From Acetobacteraceae bacterium (GTDB lineage: Bacteria; Pseudomonadota; Alphaproteobacteria; Acetobacterales; Acetobacteraceae), in NCBI GenBank assembly GCA_947475245.1, contig CANJLW010000008.1, positions 62,001 to 126,000 of the forward strand: a stretch of DNA of 64,000 nt. The letters run 5' to 3'. The notes under the pieces are model-generated. The model had not been told where the DNA came from and ran no database searches. It saw only the letters and a program-made list of their open reading frames with translations. How positions within the stretch are numbered: position 1 is the stretch's first letter; every line of letters begins with the position of its first letter. This document shows positions 21,364 through 27,749 of this stretch, in pieces. The translations under genes were made by a program, and so were the position numbers.

Positions 21364-22044
<681 letters not shown>

Positions 22045-22215: not shown

Positions 22216-23649
22216 ATGGCGAAGAAGCCGACAGGCACGACCTCCAGCGTGAGCAAGGTGCTGGAGATGCTCAAGGAGCACTCCGTGGAATACGTGGACC
22301 TGCGGTTCACCGACCCCCGCGGCAAGTGGCATCACACGGCGCAGCACGTCTCCACCATCGATGAAGACGTCTTCCGCGACGGCATCATGTTTGACGGCTC
22401 CTCCATCGCCGGATGGAAGGCCATCAACGAATCCGACATGATCCTGATGCTCGACCCAGACACGGCGGTCATGGACCCGTTCTCGGCCAAGCCCCAGATG
22501 ATCATCATCTGCGACATCATCGAACCCTCCACCGGTCAGCCCTACGCCCGCGACCCCCGCGGCACCGCCAAAAAGGCCGAGGCTTATGTCAAGTCCTCCG
22601 GCATCGGCGACGCCGTCTACATGGGCCCGGAAGCTGAATTCTTCATCTTCGACAGCGTGAAGTTCGGCACCGGCGGCAACTTCGGCACCTACCAGCTCGA
22701 CAGCCAGGAAGGCCCCGGCGCGTCGATGAAAGACTACCCCGAAGGCAACATGGGCCATCGCCCGACCGTCAAGGGCGGCTACTTCCCCGTTGCCCCGGTC
22801 GACAGCGAATCCGACCTGCGCGCCGAAATGCTCTCCACGATGGGAGAGATGGGCCTCGCGATCGAAAAGCATCACCACGAAGTCGCGCAGAGCCAGCACG
22901 AACTCGGCACCAAGTTCGGCCCGCTGACCATGCAGGCCGACCACATGCAGATCTACAAGTACTGCGTGCACAACGTCGCCCACAGCTACGGCAAGACCGC
23001 GACCTTCATGCCGAAGCCGATCTATGGCGATAACGGCTCGGGCATGCATGTCCATCAGTCGATCTGGAAGGGCGGCAAGCCGCTGTTCGCCGGCAACGCC
23101 TATGCCGACCTGTCGGAAACCTGCCTGTATTACATCGGCGGCATCATCAAGCACGCCAAGGCGCTGAACGCCTTCACCAACCCCTCGACCAACAGCTACA
23201 AGCGGTTGATCCCCGGGTTCGAAGCGCCGGTGCTGCTGGCCTATTCCGCCCGCAACCGTTCGGCCTCCTGCCGCATCCCCTATGCGACAAACCCCAAGGC
23301 CAAGCGCGTCGAAGTCCGCTTCCCCGACCCGACCGCCAATCCGTACCTCGCCTTCGCGGCGATGCTGATGGCCGGTCTCGACGGCATCAAGAACAAAATC
23401 CATCCGGGCGACCCGATGGACAAGGACCTCTACGACCTGCCCCCCGAAGAACTCAAGGGCATCCCGACGGTCTGCGGCAGCCTGCGCGAAGCGCTCGGCG
23501 CGCTGCAAGCCGACCATGAATTCCTGCTCGCCGGCGACGTGTTCTCCATCGACCAGATCGAGAGCTACATCGAACTGAAGTGGACCGAAGTGCACCGCTT
23601 CGAACACACGCCGCACCCCGTCGAGTTCGAAATGTACTACTCGGTCTGA
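22216..23649 (+). CDS. glnA: Glutamine synthetase type I
   Basis: ATP-dependent ligation of ammonia to glutamate, the entry point of ammonium assimilation. The 477-residue sequence is a standard dodecameric GSI-beta: FDGSSIAGW near residue 60, [10 protein letters not shown] and the [25 protein letters not shown] active-site region (split across about residues 273-295). Tyr406 in [11 protein letters not shown] is the adenylylation site used by GlnE, so activity should be switched off in nitrogen excess through the PII cascade. A strong terminator follows. Confidence 0.98.
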
Positions 23650-23833: not shown

Positions 23834-23849
23834 TGGCACGAATGTTGAA
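23834..23849 (+). promoter_or_regulatory. Sigma-54 (RpoN) promoter for glnK-amtB
   Basis: TGGCACG-AATG-TTGAA has a perfect -24 half and a -12 half with TTGA in place of TTGC. Spacing is correct. It is ~88 bases upstream of glnK. glnK-amtB operons are known NtrC/sigma-54 targets. Confidence 0.75.
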
Positions 23850-23936: not shown

Positions 23937-24275
23937 ATGAAACTCATCATGGCGATCATCAAGCCCTTCAAACTCGACGACGTGCGCGAAGCGCTCACGC
24001 CGCTCGGCGTGCAAGGGCTGACCGTCTCCGAGGTCAAGGGCTTCGGACGACAAAAGGGACAGACCGAGATCTATCGCGGCGCCGAATACCACGTCAGCTT
24101 CCTGCCGAAGATCAAGATCGAAGTCGTCATCTCCGACGACATGACCGATCAGGTCATCGAGGCGATCTCCAAGGCCGCGCATACCGGCAAGATCGGCGAC
24201 GGCAAGATTTTCGTCATGGATATCGAACGCGCTCTGCGGATCCGCACCGGCGAAGCCGATACCGAAGCCCTCTGA
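23937..24275 (+). CDS. glnK: Nitrogen regulatory protein P-II, GlnK paralogue
   Basis: Second 112-residue PII protein, with the same T-loop (GFGRQKGQTEIYRGAEY) and Tyr51. It differs from GlnB chiefly in the core. Its place 27 bases upstream of amtB is diagnostic of GlnK, which plugs the AmtB channel when nitrogen is abundant. Expressed from the sigma-54-type promoter upstream, so probably made only under nitrogen limitation. Confidence 0.97.
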   Translation: MKLIMAIIKPFKLDDVREALTPLGVQGLTVSEVKGFGRQKGQTEIYRGAEYHVSFLPKIKIEVVISDDMTDQVIEAISKAAHTGKIGDGKIFVMDIERALRIRTGEADTEAL

Positions 24276-24302: not shown

Positions 24303-25649
24303 ATGACGAGACCCCGCCTGAGTTGGGGCATGGCGGCCCTGCTGCCTACGCTTCTGGCCGCGACACCGGCTTTCGCCGAACCGCAGATCGACAGCGGCGA
24401 CACCGCATGGATGCTGACCAGCACCGCGCTTGTGCTGATGATGACCATCCCCGGACTCGCCCTGTTCTATGCCGGCATGGTGCGCAAGAAGAACATCCTC
24501 GCCACCATGATGCAGTCCTTCGCGATCTGCTGCCTCGTCACCATCGTCTGGGTGGTCGCCGGCTACAGCATCGCCTTCACCAACGGCAACGCCTATATGG
24601 GCGACTTCTCCCGTATCCTGCTCAAGGGCATCGGCGACAACATCTCCAAGGGCGCGGATATTCCGTTCACCCTGGGCGCGGGCAGCCCCGGCGAGACCGT
24701 GCTGACCATCCCCGAAACCGTTTACATGATGTATCAGCTGACCTTCGCGATCATCACCCCGGCCCTGATCGCCGGCGCCTTCGCCGATCGCATGAAGTTC
24801 TCCGCCATGTGCATCTTCATGGTGCTGTGGTCCCTGTTTGTTTACTCGCCCGTCGCCCATTGGGTCTGGGCACCGACCGGCTGGGCCTTCGGCCTGGGCG
24901 TTCTCGACTTCGCCGGCGGCACCGTCGTGCACATCAATGCCGGCGTCGCCGGCCTGGTCTGCGCCCTGGTTCTCGGCAAGCGCGTCGGCTACGGCTCCGA
25001 CAACATGGCGCCGCATAACCTGGTCTATGCCGTGATCGGCGCTTCCCTGCTTTGGGTGGGCTGGTTCGGCTTCAACGCCGGCTCCGCCACCGCCGCCAAC
25101 GGACGCGCCGGCATGGCCATGGCCGTCACCCAGATCGCCACCGCCGCCGCCGCCCTCGGCTGGATGTTCGCGGAGTGGATCACCAAGGGCAAACCCTCCG
25201 TCCTCGGCGCCATCTCCGGCGCGGTTGCCGGCCTGGTCGCTATCACCCCGGCTTCCGGCTTCGTGCTCCCCGGCTCCTCGATCATCATCGGCGTCGTTGC
25301 CGGCGTGGTCTGCTTCTGGGGCGCTACCGGCCTGAAGCACATGCTTGGCTACGATGACAGCCTCGACGCCTTCGGCGTGCACGGCATCGGCGGTATCGTC
25401 GGCGCTTTGCTCACCGGCATCCTCTCCTTCGGCCCGCTCTCGGCGACCGATGCCACCCCCGACGGTTCGCCGGGCGGCCTCGACCAGCTCAAGCTCCAGG
25501 CCATCGGCGTCATTACGACAGTGATTTACAGCGGTGTCATGACGGCGGTCCTGCTCTACATCACCAAGGCGCTTGTCGGCCTGCGGCTGGCCCCTGACGA
25601 AGAGCGCGAAGGCCTCGACATCGTCCTGCACGGCGAACAGGTCTTCTGA
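24303..25649 (+). CDS. amtB: Ammonium transporter
   Basis: Inner-membrane ammonium channel, 448 residues with an N-terminal signal sequence (about 25 residues, LLPTLLAATPAFA) followed by the Amt core starting DTAWMLTSTALVLMMTIPGLALFY in two halves. The twin-histidine pore residues are present as His186 (VAHWVW) and His360 (GVHGIGG). The operon with glnK gives PII-controlled gating. An outer-membrane porin gene follows after a long hairpin. Confidence 0.97.
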   Translation: MTRPRLSWGMAALLPTLLAATPAFAEPQIDSGDTAWMLTSTALVLMMTIPGLALFYAGMVRKKNILATMMQSFAICCLVTIVWVVAGYSIAFTNGNAYMGDFSRILLKGIGDNISKGADIPFTLGAGSPGETVLTIPETVYMMYQLTFAIITPALIAGAFADRMKFSAMCIFMVLWSLFVYSPVAHWVWAPTGWAFGLGVLDFAGGTVVHINAGVAGLVCALVLGKRVGYGSDNMAPHNLVYAVIGASLLWVGWFGFNAGSATAANGRAGMAMAVTQIATAAAALGWMFAEWITKGKPSVLGAISGAVAGLVAITPASGFVLPGSSIIIGVVAGVVCFWGATGLKHMLGYDDSLDAFGVHGIGGIVGALLTGILSFGPLSATDATPDGSPGGLDQLKLQAIGVITTVIYSGVMTAVLLYITKALVGLRLAPDEEREGLDIVLHGEQVF

Positions 25650-25723: not shown

Positions 25724-27016
25724 ATGGAAACGAAAGCAATGAGACGTTCAAACACATCGTTCGCAGGCTGGCTCACCGCGACGACCTGCATCGTCGCCGC
25801 GTCGATGCCCGCCGCGGCCCAGCCCGCGTCCCCCAACCTGTGGACAGACACGGTCAAATTTAATCTGCAAATCCAGGGCGGCATCATCGGCAACTCCGCC
25901 AAGCAGACAACCGGAAGCGGCGGCAATTTCGGCCAGCTCTTCACCGACAAGGCAAACGACTTCCAGTTGAACCAGGTGCTGGCGACAGTCGCCCGCCCGC
26001 TGGATCCGAAAGCCACCGGCTTCGACTTCGGCTTCAAGCTGCAAGGCCTGTTCGGCACCGATGCGCGCTACACGCGCTGGGTGAACTTCGGCCAGGGCCC
26101 CACCGGTCGCTATCAGGGTGACATCACCGAGGCCAACATCCTCGTCCACACCCCCTGGATCACCGAAGGCGGCCTCGACTTCAAGCTCGGCATGTTCTCC
26201 ACGCCGATGGGCTTCGAAACCATCGACCCGATCACCAACCCGTTCTACTCGCACTCCTATATCTTCAACTTCGGCCTGCCGCTGAAGCACACCGGCGTGC
26301 TCGCCACCCTGCACGCGACGGACATCGTCGACCTCTATCTCGGCGTCACGTCCGGCGTGAACACAACGCTCGGCGCGTACCGCGGCGACAATAACTCCGC
26401 CGGCTCCTTCATGGCGGGCGTCGGCCTGAACCTGATGGGCGGCGACCTGACCATCCTCGGCCTGACCCATATCGGGCCTGAAAACCCCGGCCAGGCCGGC
26501 GGCACTGCCTCCATCCCGCTCGCCAACCGTTCGAACCGCTATTATTTCGACGTGCTGACGACTTACAAGGCGACCGAAAAGCTGACCCTGATCGCCGAAC
26601 TGAACTATGTCCGTGACGAACTGCCCGGCCTGACCCCATCCGCCTACGGCGCGGCGGTTTATGCCGGTTACGAACTCACCGACATGGTCACGTTGAACGC
26701 CCGCGCCGAAGTGTTCCGCGACGAAAAGAACTTCTTCGTCGCCGCCTTCCCCGGCGCCAACGACTTCAACAACTTCCAGTCAGGCCGAGCGACCGGCCCG
26801 ATTGTGAGCGGCGTCGCCGGACAGGCAACGACGTACGGTGCCATCACCGTCGGCCTGACCGTCAAGCCGCCCATCGAAATGCTGAAGCTGCCGGGCGCGC
26901 TGATGATCCGTCCGGAAGTCCGCTACGACACATCGCTGAATGGCAAAAAGCCGTTCCGCGGCGGTCGCGATACCGGCGCCTTCACCTTCGGCACGGATTT
27001 CGTGCTGACGTTCTGA
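25724..27016 (+). CDS. Outer-membrane beta-barrel porin (BBP2/OmpL-like)
   Basis: 430-residue protein with a signal peptide ending near AAAQPA and a mature part of alternating amphipathic strands (KFNLQIQGGIIGNSA, TGFDFGFKLQGLFGTDARY, GLDFKLGMFSTPMGFET) ending in Phe (FVLTF), as usual for outer-membrane barrels. It resembles the putative beta-barrel porin-2 family. Located 74 bases downstream of amtB on the same strand with no strong terminator between, it may allow ammonium, urea or another small nitrogen compound across the outer membrane under nitrogen limitation; that role is inference. A second ATG five codons in is an alternative start. Confidence 0.82.
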   Translation: METKAMRRSNTSFAGWLTATTCIVAASMPAAAQPASPNLWTDTVKFNLQIQGGIIGNSAKQTTGSGGNFGQLFTDKANDFQLNQVLATVARPLDPKATGFDFGFKLQGLFGTDARYTRWVNFGQGPTGRYQGDITEANILVHTPWITEGGLDFKLGMFSTPMGFETIDPITNPFYSHSYIFNFGLPLKHTGVLATLHATDIVDLYLGVTSGVNTTLGAYRGDNNSAGSFMAGVGLNLMGGDLTILGLTHIGPENPGQAGGTASIPLANRSNRYYFDVLTTYKATEKLTLIAELNYVRDELPGLTPSAYGAAVYAGYELTDMVTLNARAEVFRDEKNFFVAAFPGANDFNNFQSGRATGPIVSGVAGQATTYGAITVGLTVKPPIEMLKLPGALMIRPEVRYDTSLNGKKPFRGGRDTGAFTFGTDFVLTF

Positions 27017-27038
27017 TCCACGCCAAATCCGCTACGGA

Positions 27039-27073
27039 AAGGCCGGAGCCCCAGGGGTTCCGGCCTTTTTTTT
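27039..27073 (+). terminator. Rho-independent terminator after the porin gene
   Basis: AAGGCCGGA pairs with TCCGGCCTT, with CCCC/GGGG pairs possible in the loop, followed by a run of eight T. It ends the glnK-amtB-porin transcript and isolates the next gene. Confidence 0.93.
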
Positions 27074-27095: not shown

Positions 27096-27111
27096 TGGCC
27101 CGAGACTTGCT
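27096..27111 (+). promoter_or_regulatory. Sigma-54 (RpoN) promoter for the secreted 164-residue protein
   Basis: TGGCCCG-AGAC-TTGCT matches the consensus TGGCACG-N4-TTGCW with a single A-to-C change, and GG/GC spacing is exact. It lies between the porin terminator and the next gene, ~80 bases before its ATG. Its location next to two other sigma-54-like promoters supports it. Confidence 0.72.
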
Positions 27112-27190
27112 TAGAAATTAATGTCTCAGCCCGATCGGCCTGGGCAAAACGCTAACAACCGCTCTACAGAAGCCCAAAAAGGGGAATACG

Positions 27191-27685
27191 ATGCGTAAAT
27201 TGACAGCACTCTTCGCCGCCTGCGCCCTCACCCTGCTCTGCTCGACCGCATCCATGGCGGCGACGTATTCCGCCCTGATCAGCAGTGAGAATCAGGTCGC
27301 CAAAGCCGCCAACACCCCCTACGTCGTCACCATGACCGGCGACGCCACGCCCGGCTTCAAGGTCGACGGCTCCAAGGTAACCGTCCTTAAGGGCGGCGAT
27401 TACTTCGTGTGCGGCGCGGCCCAGGTCGGCGGCAGCACCGCGGGCAACATCTATCTCTGGGTGCGCGTGAACGGTAAGGACGTGCCGGACTCCAACTCCA
27501 TCCAGAACATTCCCTCCAAGGACTTCACCACCGTGCTGGTGTCCCAGGGCGAAATGACCTTCAAGGCCGGCGACGTGTTCGAATTCGTCTATTCCGCCAC
27601 TGCACCCGGCCTGGGCCTGATCGCTTCCAAGCCCGCCAACATGCCTGCCGTGCCGTCCATCATCTTCACCATCTTCAAGAACTAA
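27191..27685 (+). CDS. Secreted 164-residue protein, C1q/TNF-like pattern
   Basis: The N-terminal signal peptide (LTALFAACALTLLCSTASMAA) implies export. The mature ~140 residues have a beta-rich pattern (GGDYFVCGAAQVGG, IYLWVRVNGKDVPDSNS, VLVSQGEMTFKAGDVFEFVYSA) reminiscent of C1q/TNF-type jelly-roll domains; this is by eye and tentative. No catalytic motif. AGGGGAA-like purines precede the ATG. It has its own sigma-54-type promoter and terminator, directly after the glnK-amtB-porin operon, so a role in nitrogen starvation (envelope, adhesion or a scavenging complex with the porin) is plausible but unproven. Confidence 0.75.
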   Translation: MRKLTALFAACALTLLCSTASMAATYSALISSENQVAKAANTPYVVTMTGDATPGFKVDGSKVTVLKGGDYFVCGAAQVGGSTAGNIYLWVRVNGKDVPDSNSIQNIPSKDFTTVLVSQGEMTFKAGDVFEFVYSATAPGLGLIASKPANMPAVPSIIFTIFKN

Positions 27686-27710
27686 GCCTACCCCTTCTCC
27701 CCCAACGCGG

Positions 27711-27749
27711 ACGGGCCGGAACCCCAGGGTTCCGGCCCGTTTTCGTTTT
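27711..27749 (+). terminator. Rho-independent terminator after the secreted protein gene
   Basis: ACGGGCCGGAACCC and its complement GGGTTCCGGCCCGT form a near-perfect 14-base hairpin followed by TTTCGTTTT. It closes a single-gene transcript. Confidence 0.92.

Follow-up and report, generated by a model that had tools for sequence, protein, structure and literature searches.

The stretch analysed (the window) comprises 64,000 nucleotides of a genome assigned to Acetobacteraceae (contig CANJLW010000008.1, positions 62,001 to 126,000 of the forward strand). Its plus strand carries, in this order, glnB (21706), glnA (22216-23649; named by eye), glnK, amtB, a porin gene, and an ORF of 164 amino acids with its ATG at 27191, which we call gene X (27191-27685). 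The P-II protein GlnK (23937-24275; Pfam PF00543, E = 4.2e-33), the ammonium transporter AmtB (24303-25649; PF00909, E = 3.6e-122) and a BBP2-type outer-membrane porin (25724-27016; PF07642, E = 1.6e-68) are followed by an intrinsic terminator at 27036-27070, a 16-pair hairpin with a T run, which closes the glnK-amtB-porin group on the 5' side of the X promoter. A second intrinsic terminator, with a 15-pair hairpin and a T run, lies 3' of X at 27709-27742. Checking the sequence, we found that the range from 27096 to 27685 consists of a candidate sigma-54 (RpoN) -24/-12 promoter, TGGCCCG-AGAC-TTGCT (27096-27111), and gene X. All these features are on the plus strand. The initial annotation had placed X between strong terminators as a unit of its own, and the two hairpins bear this out. 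At the locus L005 of a related genome, X is situated between amtB and the porin gene, behind its own promoter, which argues against X being a read-through product.

The putative X promoter differs at one position from TGGCACG-N4-TTGCW, has the exact spacing and lies 95 bases before the ATG, confirming the match claimed initially; the consensus is the one given in PMC3224663. The -24 GG and -12 GC elements and the fixed spacing that mark the RpoN promoter class are all present. Sites with up to two mismatches occur 12 times in the window versus 11.6 expected, and the single X site is by itself not beyond chance. We therefore looked at its rank and its conservation. With an approximate RpoN weight matrix typed from recall, the X site ranked second among 127,970 window positions, right behind the glnK promoter, and the stricter pattern TGGCMCRNNNNTTGCW occurred 8 times in the 5.2-Mb genome compared with 3 times for the reversed control. 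Nine X-type genes are available (that of the window and L002 to L009), eight of them with readable upstream DNA; L003, whose sequence begins 33 bases before its ATG, was excluded from the promoter comparison. A -24/-12 element is present at -90 to -95 from the ATG in all eight genes, the window included. The initial annotation had staked its claim on conservation of this element in homologous loci, and the outcome favours that claim. The seven X genes at glnK-amtB-porin loci, again including that of the window, all have a strong site at this distance (scores of 12.4-16.1), and each of these scores was reached by none or one of 500 shuffles of the gene's own upstream sequence. The copy located elsewhere, L002, has a weak site at an equal distance, with a score of 9.9 that 12 of 500 shuffles reached. 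In the alignment of the upstream regions, 9 of the 12 specified site positions are invariant, and the invariant bases amount to 30 of the 184 in the window's stretch, including these nine positions and the ATG; the eight sequences are related and do not represent independent trials, with a leader that is largely similar among L004 to L009. As a control, we scored 400 bases of the plus strand after the porin gene in 21 amtB loci lacking X and obtained a maximum of 9.4, which the site of L002 barely exceeds. Five paralogous genes elsewhere in genomes of the genus had promoter scores of 3.6 to 8.3. Hence, the predicted X promoter appears well supported and above chance: it is conserved among X genes, ranks second in the window and scores above the control loci without X, and the stricter pattern outnumbers its reversed control in the genome.

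How widely X occurs was addressed at several taxonomic levels. A protein query matched 9 of the 33 genomes of the window's genus, eight with an X-type gene and one (G415) with a paralogue only. Some of the 24 genomes without a match are nearly complete, which makes X an accessory gene that only part of the genus carries; absent from most genomes of the genus, it cannot be central to nitrogen limitation. In a sample of the family, 7 of 397 genomes matched, one of them outside the genus (G082); in all, X is known from 8 of 33 genomes in one genus of the Acetobacteraceae and from a single genome in another. Profile searches gave matches in 10 of 395 genomes at the level of the order, in 3 of 385 for the class and in 1 of 378 for the phylum. 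The hits in the order were six from the genus and four partial, weak ones from genus g31 (E = 0.0009-0.009), which we rejected as covering only the C-terminal ~60 residues inside frames of ~400 residues. Those in the class were the window's own, a full-length homologue in G779 (E = 3.6e-23) and a match in G560 that covers 37 residues only and was set aside, and the hit in the phylum was the window itself. A scan of genome contigs yielded ten loci from eight bins, of which seven carry the label Acetobacteraceae and one that of Nitrosovibrio. The public label of the latter genome (G265, loci L002/L029), Nitrosovibrio sp. Nv4, looks wrong, as the genome search placed it in the window's own genus.

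Among the eight X-bearing genomes of the genus, seven have X in the glnK-amtB-porin neighbourhood. The exception is G265, in which X, with its weak site, follows a glycosyltransferase gene and precedes a pair resembling thrS-infC by eye. Paralogues and distant homologues have other neighbours. A Peripla_BP_6 gene adjoins the paralogues in G358 (L032:7396-8453, two copies in tandem; the other genes of this ABC operon were named by eye) and the paralogue in G156 (L034:6310-6882), and the G779 homologue (L050:9136-9633, 34% identity) is divergent from an ABC operon encoding SBP_bac_8 and TOBE_2 proteins. No transporter evidently adjoins the paralogues in G345 and G415. Such transporters are common and the comparison had no control, and we regard these uptake genes as a lead only. 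The paralogue in G345 is located beside flgH (L036:867-1424; L010:6054-6371); a second, partial copy there is no longer similar beyond ~60 residues, close to the end of the contig. In a midpoint-rooted tree with a very long outgroup branch, the five paralogues form one group (98/99), and on this tree the sequences would fit either gain of the promoter in X or its loss in the paralogues. Hypothetical proteins 38% identical over 115 residues are encoded in 32 records of Vibrio plasmids, predicted to be mobilizable and many of them from shrimp-disease isolates.

We next considered the protein. By eye, its N-terminus (MRK, a hydrophobic stretch, and A-x-A or similar before A24) is of the Sec signal peptide type; the pattern is clear in X and its close orthologues, with a helix at residues 2-17 in the structural model. 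X is apparently exported, with a signal peptide of approximately residues 1-23 and a mature domain of residues 24-164. The alignment of 14 family sequences, inspected by eye, contained no conserved cysteine lipobox or surface anchor. None of the 14 members passed a curated cut-off in Pfam or NCBIfam (best E = 0.0054; this rests on the scores of the first member and on the best E-values of all 14), and the sub-threshold Pfam matches to YbgS, Cu_bind_like and FAA_hydrolase were rejected. Searching the PDB by sequence gave nothing convincing, the SIR2/DSR2 and galactanase matches (E = 0.014 and above) being rejected. Across eleven sequence pairs, including one pair of paralogues, the dN/dS of the mature part was 0.12-0.41, values that indicate purifying selection on the coding sequence. 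Eight residues are invariant among the 14 sequences (W90, R92, N94, G95, D97, V98, S101 and N102), suggesting a specific fold or function.

The initial annotation had noticed a beta-rich, C1q/TNF-like pattern and called for structure prediction. An AlphaFold2 monomer model built from the 14 members of this one family had a mean pLDDT of 86.5 and a pTM of 0.75, with ten strands after the signal helix, as in the jelly roll of the C1q/TNF-like superfamily (about ten strands). Foldseek returned 332 PDB matches at E ≤ 0.001, and 49 of the 50 matches listed are named as C1q/TNF-type proteins; the remaining one of these 50 is a domain of a cyanophage short tail fibre. Among the matches listed are the C-terminal domain of BclA (E = 3.7e-7), BxpB/ExsFA and F-BclA (TM 0.64), as well as EDA-A1, 4-1BBL, APRIL, BAFF, TNF and C1QTNF5; we take BclA, BxpB and ExsFA to have the C1q/TNF-type fold. 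Pfam BclA_C gave weak sub-threshold matches in 3 of the 14 members and in the G779 homologue. The model and the fold search agree with the pattern noticed initially, and a C1q/TNF fold is well supported, as far as a predicted monomer can show.

We think it fairly probable that X is a single-gene, RpoN-dependent unit induced by nitrogen limitation and that its product is an exported C1q/TNF-fold protein, probably trimeric, which binds glycans or surfaces. Ammonium shortage would lead an enhancer-binding protein, most likely NtrC, to activate RpoN-RNA polymerase at 27096-27111. The mRNA would start near 27120 and end at the 27709-27742 terminator. The product would be exported by the Sec pathway and lose its signal peptide at about residue 23, and the mature domain of ~141 residues would fold into the jelly roll and probably trimerise. 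X could then act as a binding protein, a lectin or adhesin, in the periplasm, at the surface or outside the cell, and help the cell to hold on to a surface or to polymers that contain nitrogen, with ammonium uptake being the task of GlnK, AmtB and the porin. A role as an exported trimeric binding protein is proposed because, by analogy, bacterial TNF-like domains of known function bind glycans: BC2L-CN and PLTL do so (PMC12914763), and the Bd2439 tip of Bdellovibrio binds GlcNAc (PMC10769870). On this analogy, binding is the probable function of X.

The predicted transcript may begin with a stem-loop (27120-27146, plus strand), which was found within the first ~30 nucleotides in 8 of 8 folds. 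The shuffle z-scores of the folding energies were unremarkable in 7 of the 8. In six aligned sequences the stem is 89.6% paired, a value reached by 22 of 500 shuffles; all 500 shuffles reached its number of further pair types, and there is one compensatory pair. Perhaps the structure stabilises the mRNA.

Which activator would act at the X promoter was approached through the regulators and the glnK promoter. The genome encodes one RpoN (E = 8.7e-67), one NtrC over the cut-off (702 bits versus 558.6) and five further proteins matching the NtrC model with 312-394 bits. A strong amtB match was present in 32 of the 33 genomes of the genus, and the locus was retrieved for 29, with G099, G398 and G414 left out (partial or only second-type matches); three of the retrieved loci, in which glnK is missing or at a contig edge, are outside the glnK count. 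A TGGCACG-N4 element precedes glnK in all 26 loci examined (scores of 12.5-16.3), the GC at -12 being replaced by GA or, in a single locus, by GG. In the window this RpoN-type promoter reads TGGCACG-AATG-TTGAA (23834-23849, plus strand), with GA for GC. A further RpoN-like sequence, TGGCACG-CCGC-GTGCA at 21597-21612, lies 5' of glnB-glnA and ranks third by weight matrix in the window; glnB-glnA may be RpoN-regulated as well.

The NtrC dyad consensus is GCAC-N7-GTGC. An exact match lies at 26991-27005, ~90 bases before the -24 element, but we rejected it as support for NtrC acting on X, since it is inside the porin gene, is accompanied by two other exact matches in the window and is not conserved: with up to one mismatch, the dyad was absent from the upstream regions of 7 further X genes and of 7 glnK genes. 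We also counted gapped palindromes over 200 bases upstream of each of 25 glnK and 8 X promoters. In this count, made without a chance control, the palindrome most shared by glnK promoters (GCCC-N7) occurred in at most 5 of 25, GCCG-N12 occurred in 4 of 8 X and 0 of 25 glnK promoters, and no gapped palindrome was shared well by both sets. The NifA-type sequence TGT-N10-ACA was present in 1 of the 25 glnK and none of the 8 X promoters. With no conserved NtrC or NifA site found in the X or glnK upstream regions, it is the location of X that suggests NtrC as the most likely activator.

The same results bear on the alternative that X is RpoN-dependent but responds to an activator other than NtrC and to another signal, such as the surface, flagellar or carbon state, its proximity to amtB being incidental. 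In its favour, the genome has the five additional matches to the NtrC model, the upstream regions of both X and glnK lack a conserved NtrC-like site, and one paralogue (L036) is the neighbour of flgH. However, the position beside glnK-amtB is kept in all but one of the X-bearing genomes of the genus, and every glnK upstream region examined has an RpoN-type element of its own. We consider this alternative doubtful, though deserving of some weight.

Alternatively, an RpoN-dependent X might go no further than the periplasm or outer membrane, serve the BBP2 porin there as an assembly factor, plug or periplasmic tether, and adjust outer-membrane permeability under nitrogen limitation. X adjoins the porin gene in 7 of the 8 X-bearing genomes of the genus, a second porin gene directly follows X in L009, and a protein without lipobox or surface anchor would suit such a location. 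But the porin gene still follows amtB in 22 of 22 retrieved loci without X (one porin is cut by a contig end), showing that the porin does not need X, and G265 has X and amtB on different contigs. C1q/TNF domains typically bind ligands, which also speaks for a binding protein rather than a porin partner, and we hold the porin-partner role to be unlikely. In G156, X is followed by another porin gene of this type (L033:6998-8170).

We consider it very unlikely that X is a domesticated phage-fibre tip which, at times when nitrogen limitation causes the porin to be made, works as a soluble decoy or blocks the surface and so competes with phages for the porin or surface glycans. Viral models do match X more closely than PDB structures (TM 0.59-0.82 among the 50 listed), so that phage proteins are the closest of the listed fold matches (TM ~0.8), with identities of 18-28% in the best 35 rows. 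The majority are phage proteins without a name, and several are named as C1q-domain, collagen-repeat or tail-fibre proteins. X also gave weak tblastn matches in 7 phage records (best E = 4e-5) and weak matches to PHROGs tail proteins (best E = 0.0021), and its place beside the porin gene would suit a decoy. However, the fold is common to very many unrelated proteins, and no relative was confirmed in a scan of viral contigs that used only two peptide patterns; with the phage-record matches so weak, we rejected a mobile or phage origin of X.

The amino acid composition was examined as well. The side chains of X contain 0.177 nitrogen atoms per residue, the second lowest value after AmtB among 52 window ORFs (median 0.368), which were chosen mechanically and probably include some wrong frames that raise the median; the named genes compared range from 0.174 to 0.408. 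A low nitrogen content fits production under nitrogen shortage, but the argument is weak because the paralogues without the promoter share it. That X is merely an abundant, nitrogen-poor envelope filler valued for its low nitrogen cost, as this low rank might suggest, is highly improbable, given that these promoterless paralogues share the low nitrogen content, that such a composition is common in exported beta proteins and that the invariant residues suggest a specific fold or function.

Returning to the exported binding protein that we favour, a more specific version is a hitherto undescribed Ntr output, in which under nitrogen limitation the stand-alone C1q/TNF-fold trimer captures nitrogen-bearing polymers, or holds cells there, coupling capture to the porin and AmtB. 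We offer this version as speculative and, on balance, improbable. If it were true, the X relatives beside genes for solute-binding proteins would represent a like arrangement for other solutes.

Overall, X resembles several known systems in part. As in the NtrC/RpoN (Ntr) regulon, it has a -24/-12 promoter and adjoins glnK-amtB, in a genome encoding RpoN and NtrC. For E. coli, PMC3224663 names operons of assimilation, transport, catabolism and regulation as members, with no exported C1q-like protein among those named; X further differs in that no conserved NtrC site was found upstream of it. Exported proteins under RpoN have been heard of before: the genes with RpoN-like sites given in a study of RpoN in Bradyrhizobium include a 'secreted protein or signal peptide protein' (PMC13207237). 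Among the titles listed, a search of the open-licence literature found no paper on a C1q-like exported protein beside glnK-amtB linked to RpoN or nitrogen limitation.

Structurally, X is like the N-domain of BC2L-C from Burkholderia cenocepacia and PLTL from Photorhabdus laumondii in being a small TNF/C1q-type jelly-roll domain of a Gram-negative bacterium, but differs in its signal peptide, recognised by eye, and its RpoN-type promoter. Lectins of this kind have a fucose-binding pocket between protomers. The sequence matches to X in the PDB set searched, which may lack BC2L-C and PLTL, included no chain of either up to E = 10. The fibre tips of phages and of Bdellovibrio (MAT) share the C1q/TNF-like type of fold, and the best viral model matches to X are phage proteins; X differs from them as a single domain without collagen, beta-helix, fibre shaft or S74 protease. 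The Bacillus exosporium proteins BclA (C-terminal domain) and BxpB (ExsFA) are among the top PDB fold matches, but X has no collagen-like stalk, is no spore protein and shares 11-19% identity in the matches listed. The combination of a conserved RpoN-type promoter of its own, an Ntr neighbourhood and an apparently exported stand-alone protein with a predicted C1q/TNF fold is unusual. The Ntr regulon is usually seen in terms of transport, assimilation and regulation, and if X belongs to it, nitrogen limitation would be linked to events outside the inner membrane. X would then offer a C1q-like protein of bacteria that stands alone and whose ligand can be tested, since the condition under which it is expressed is predicted.
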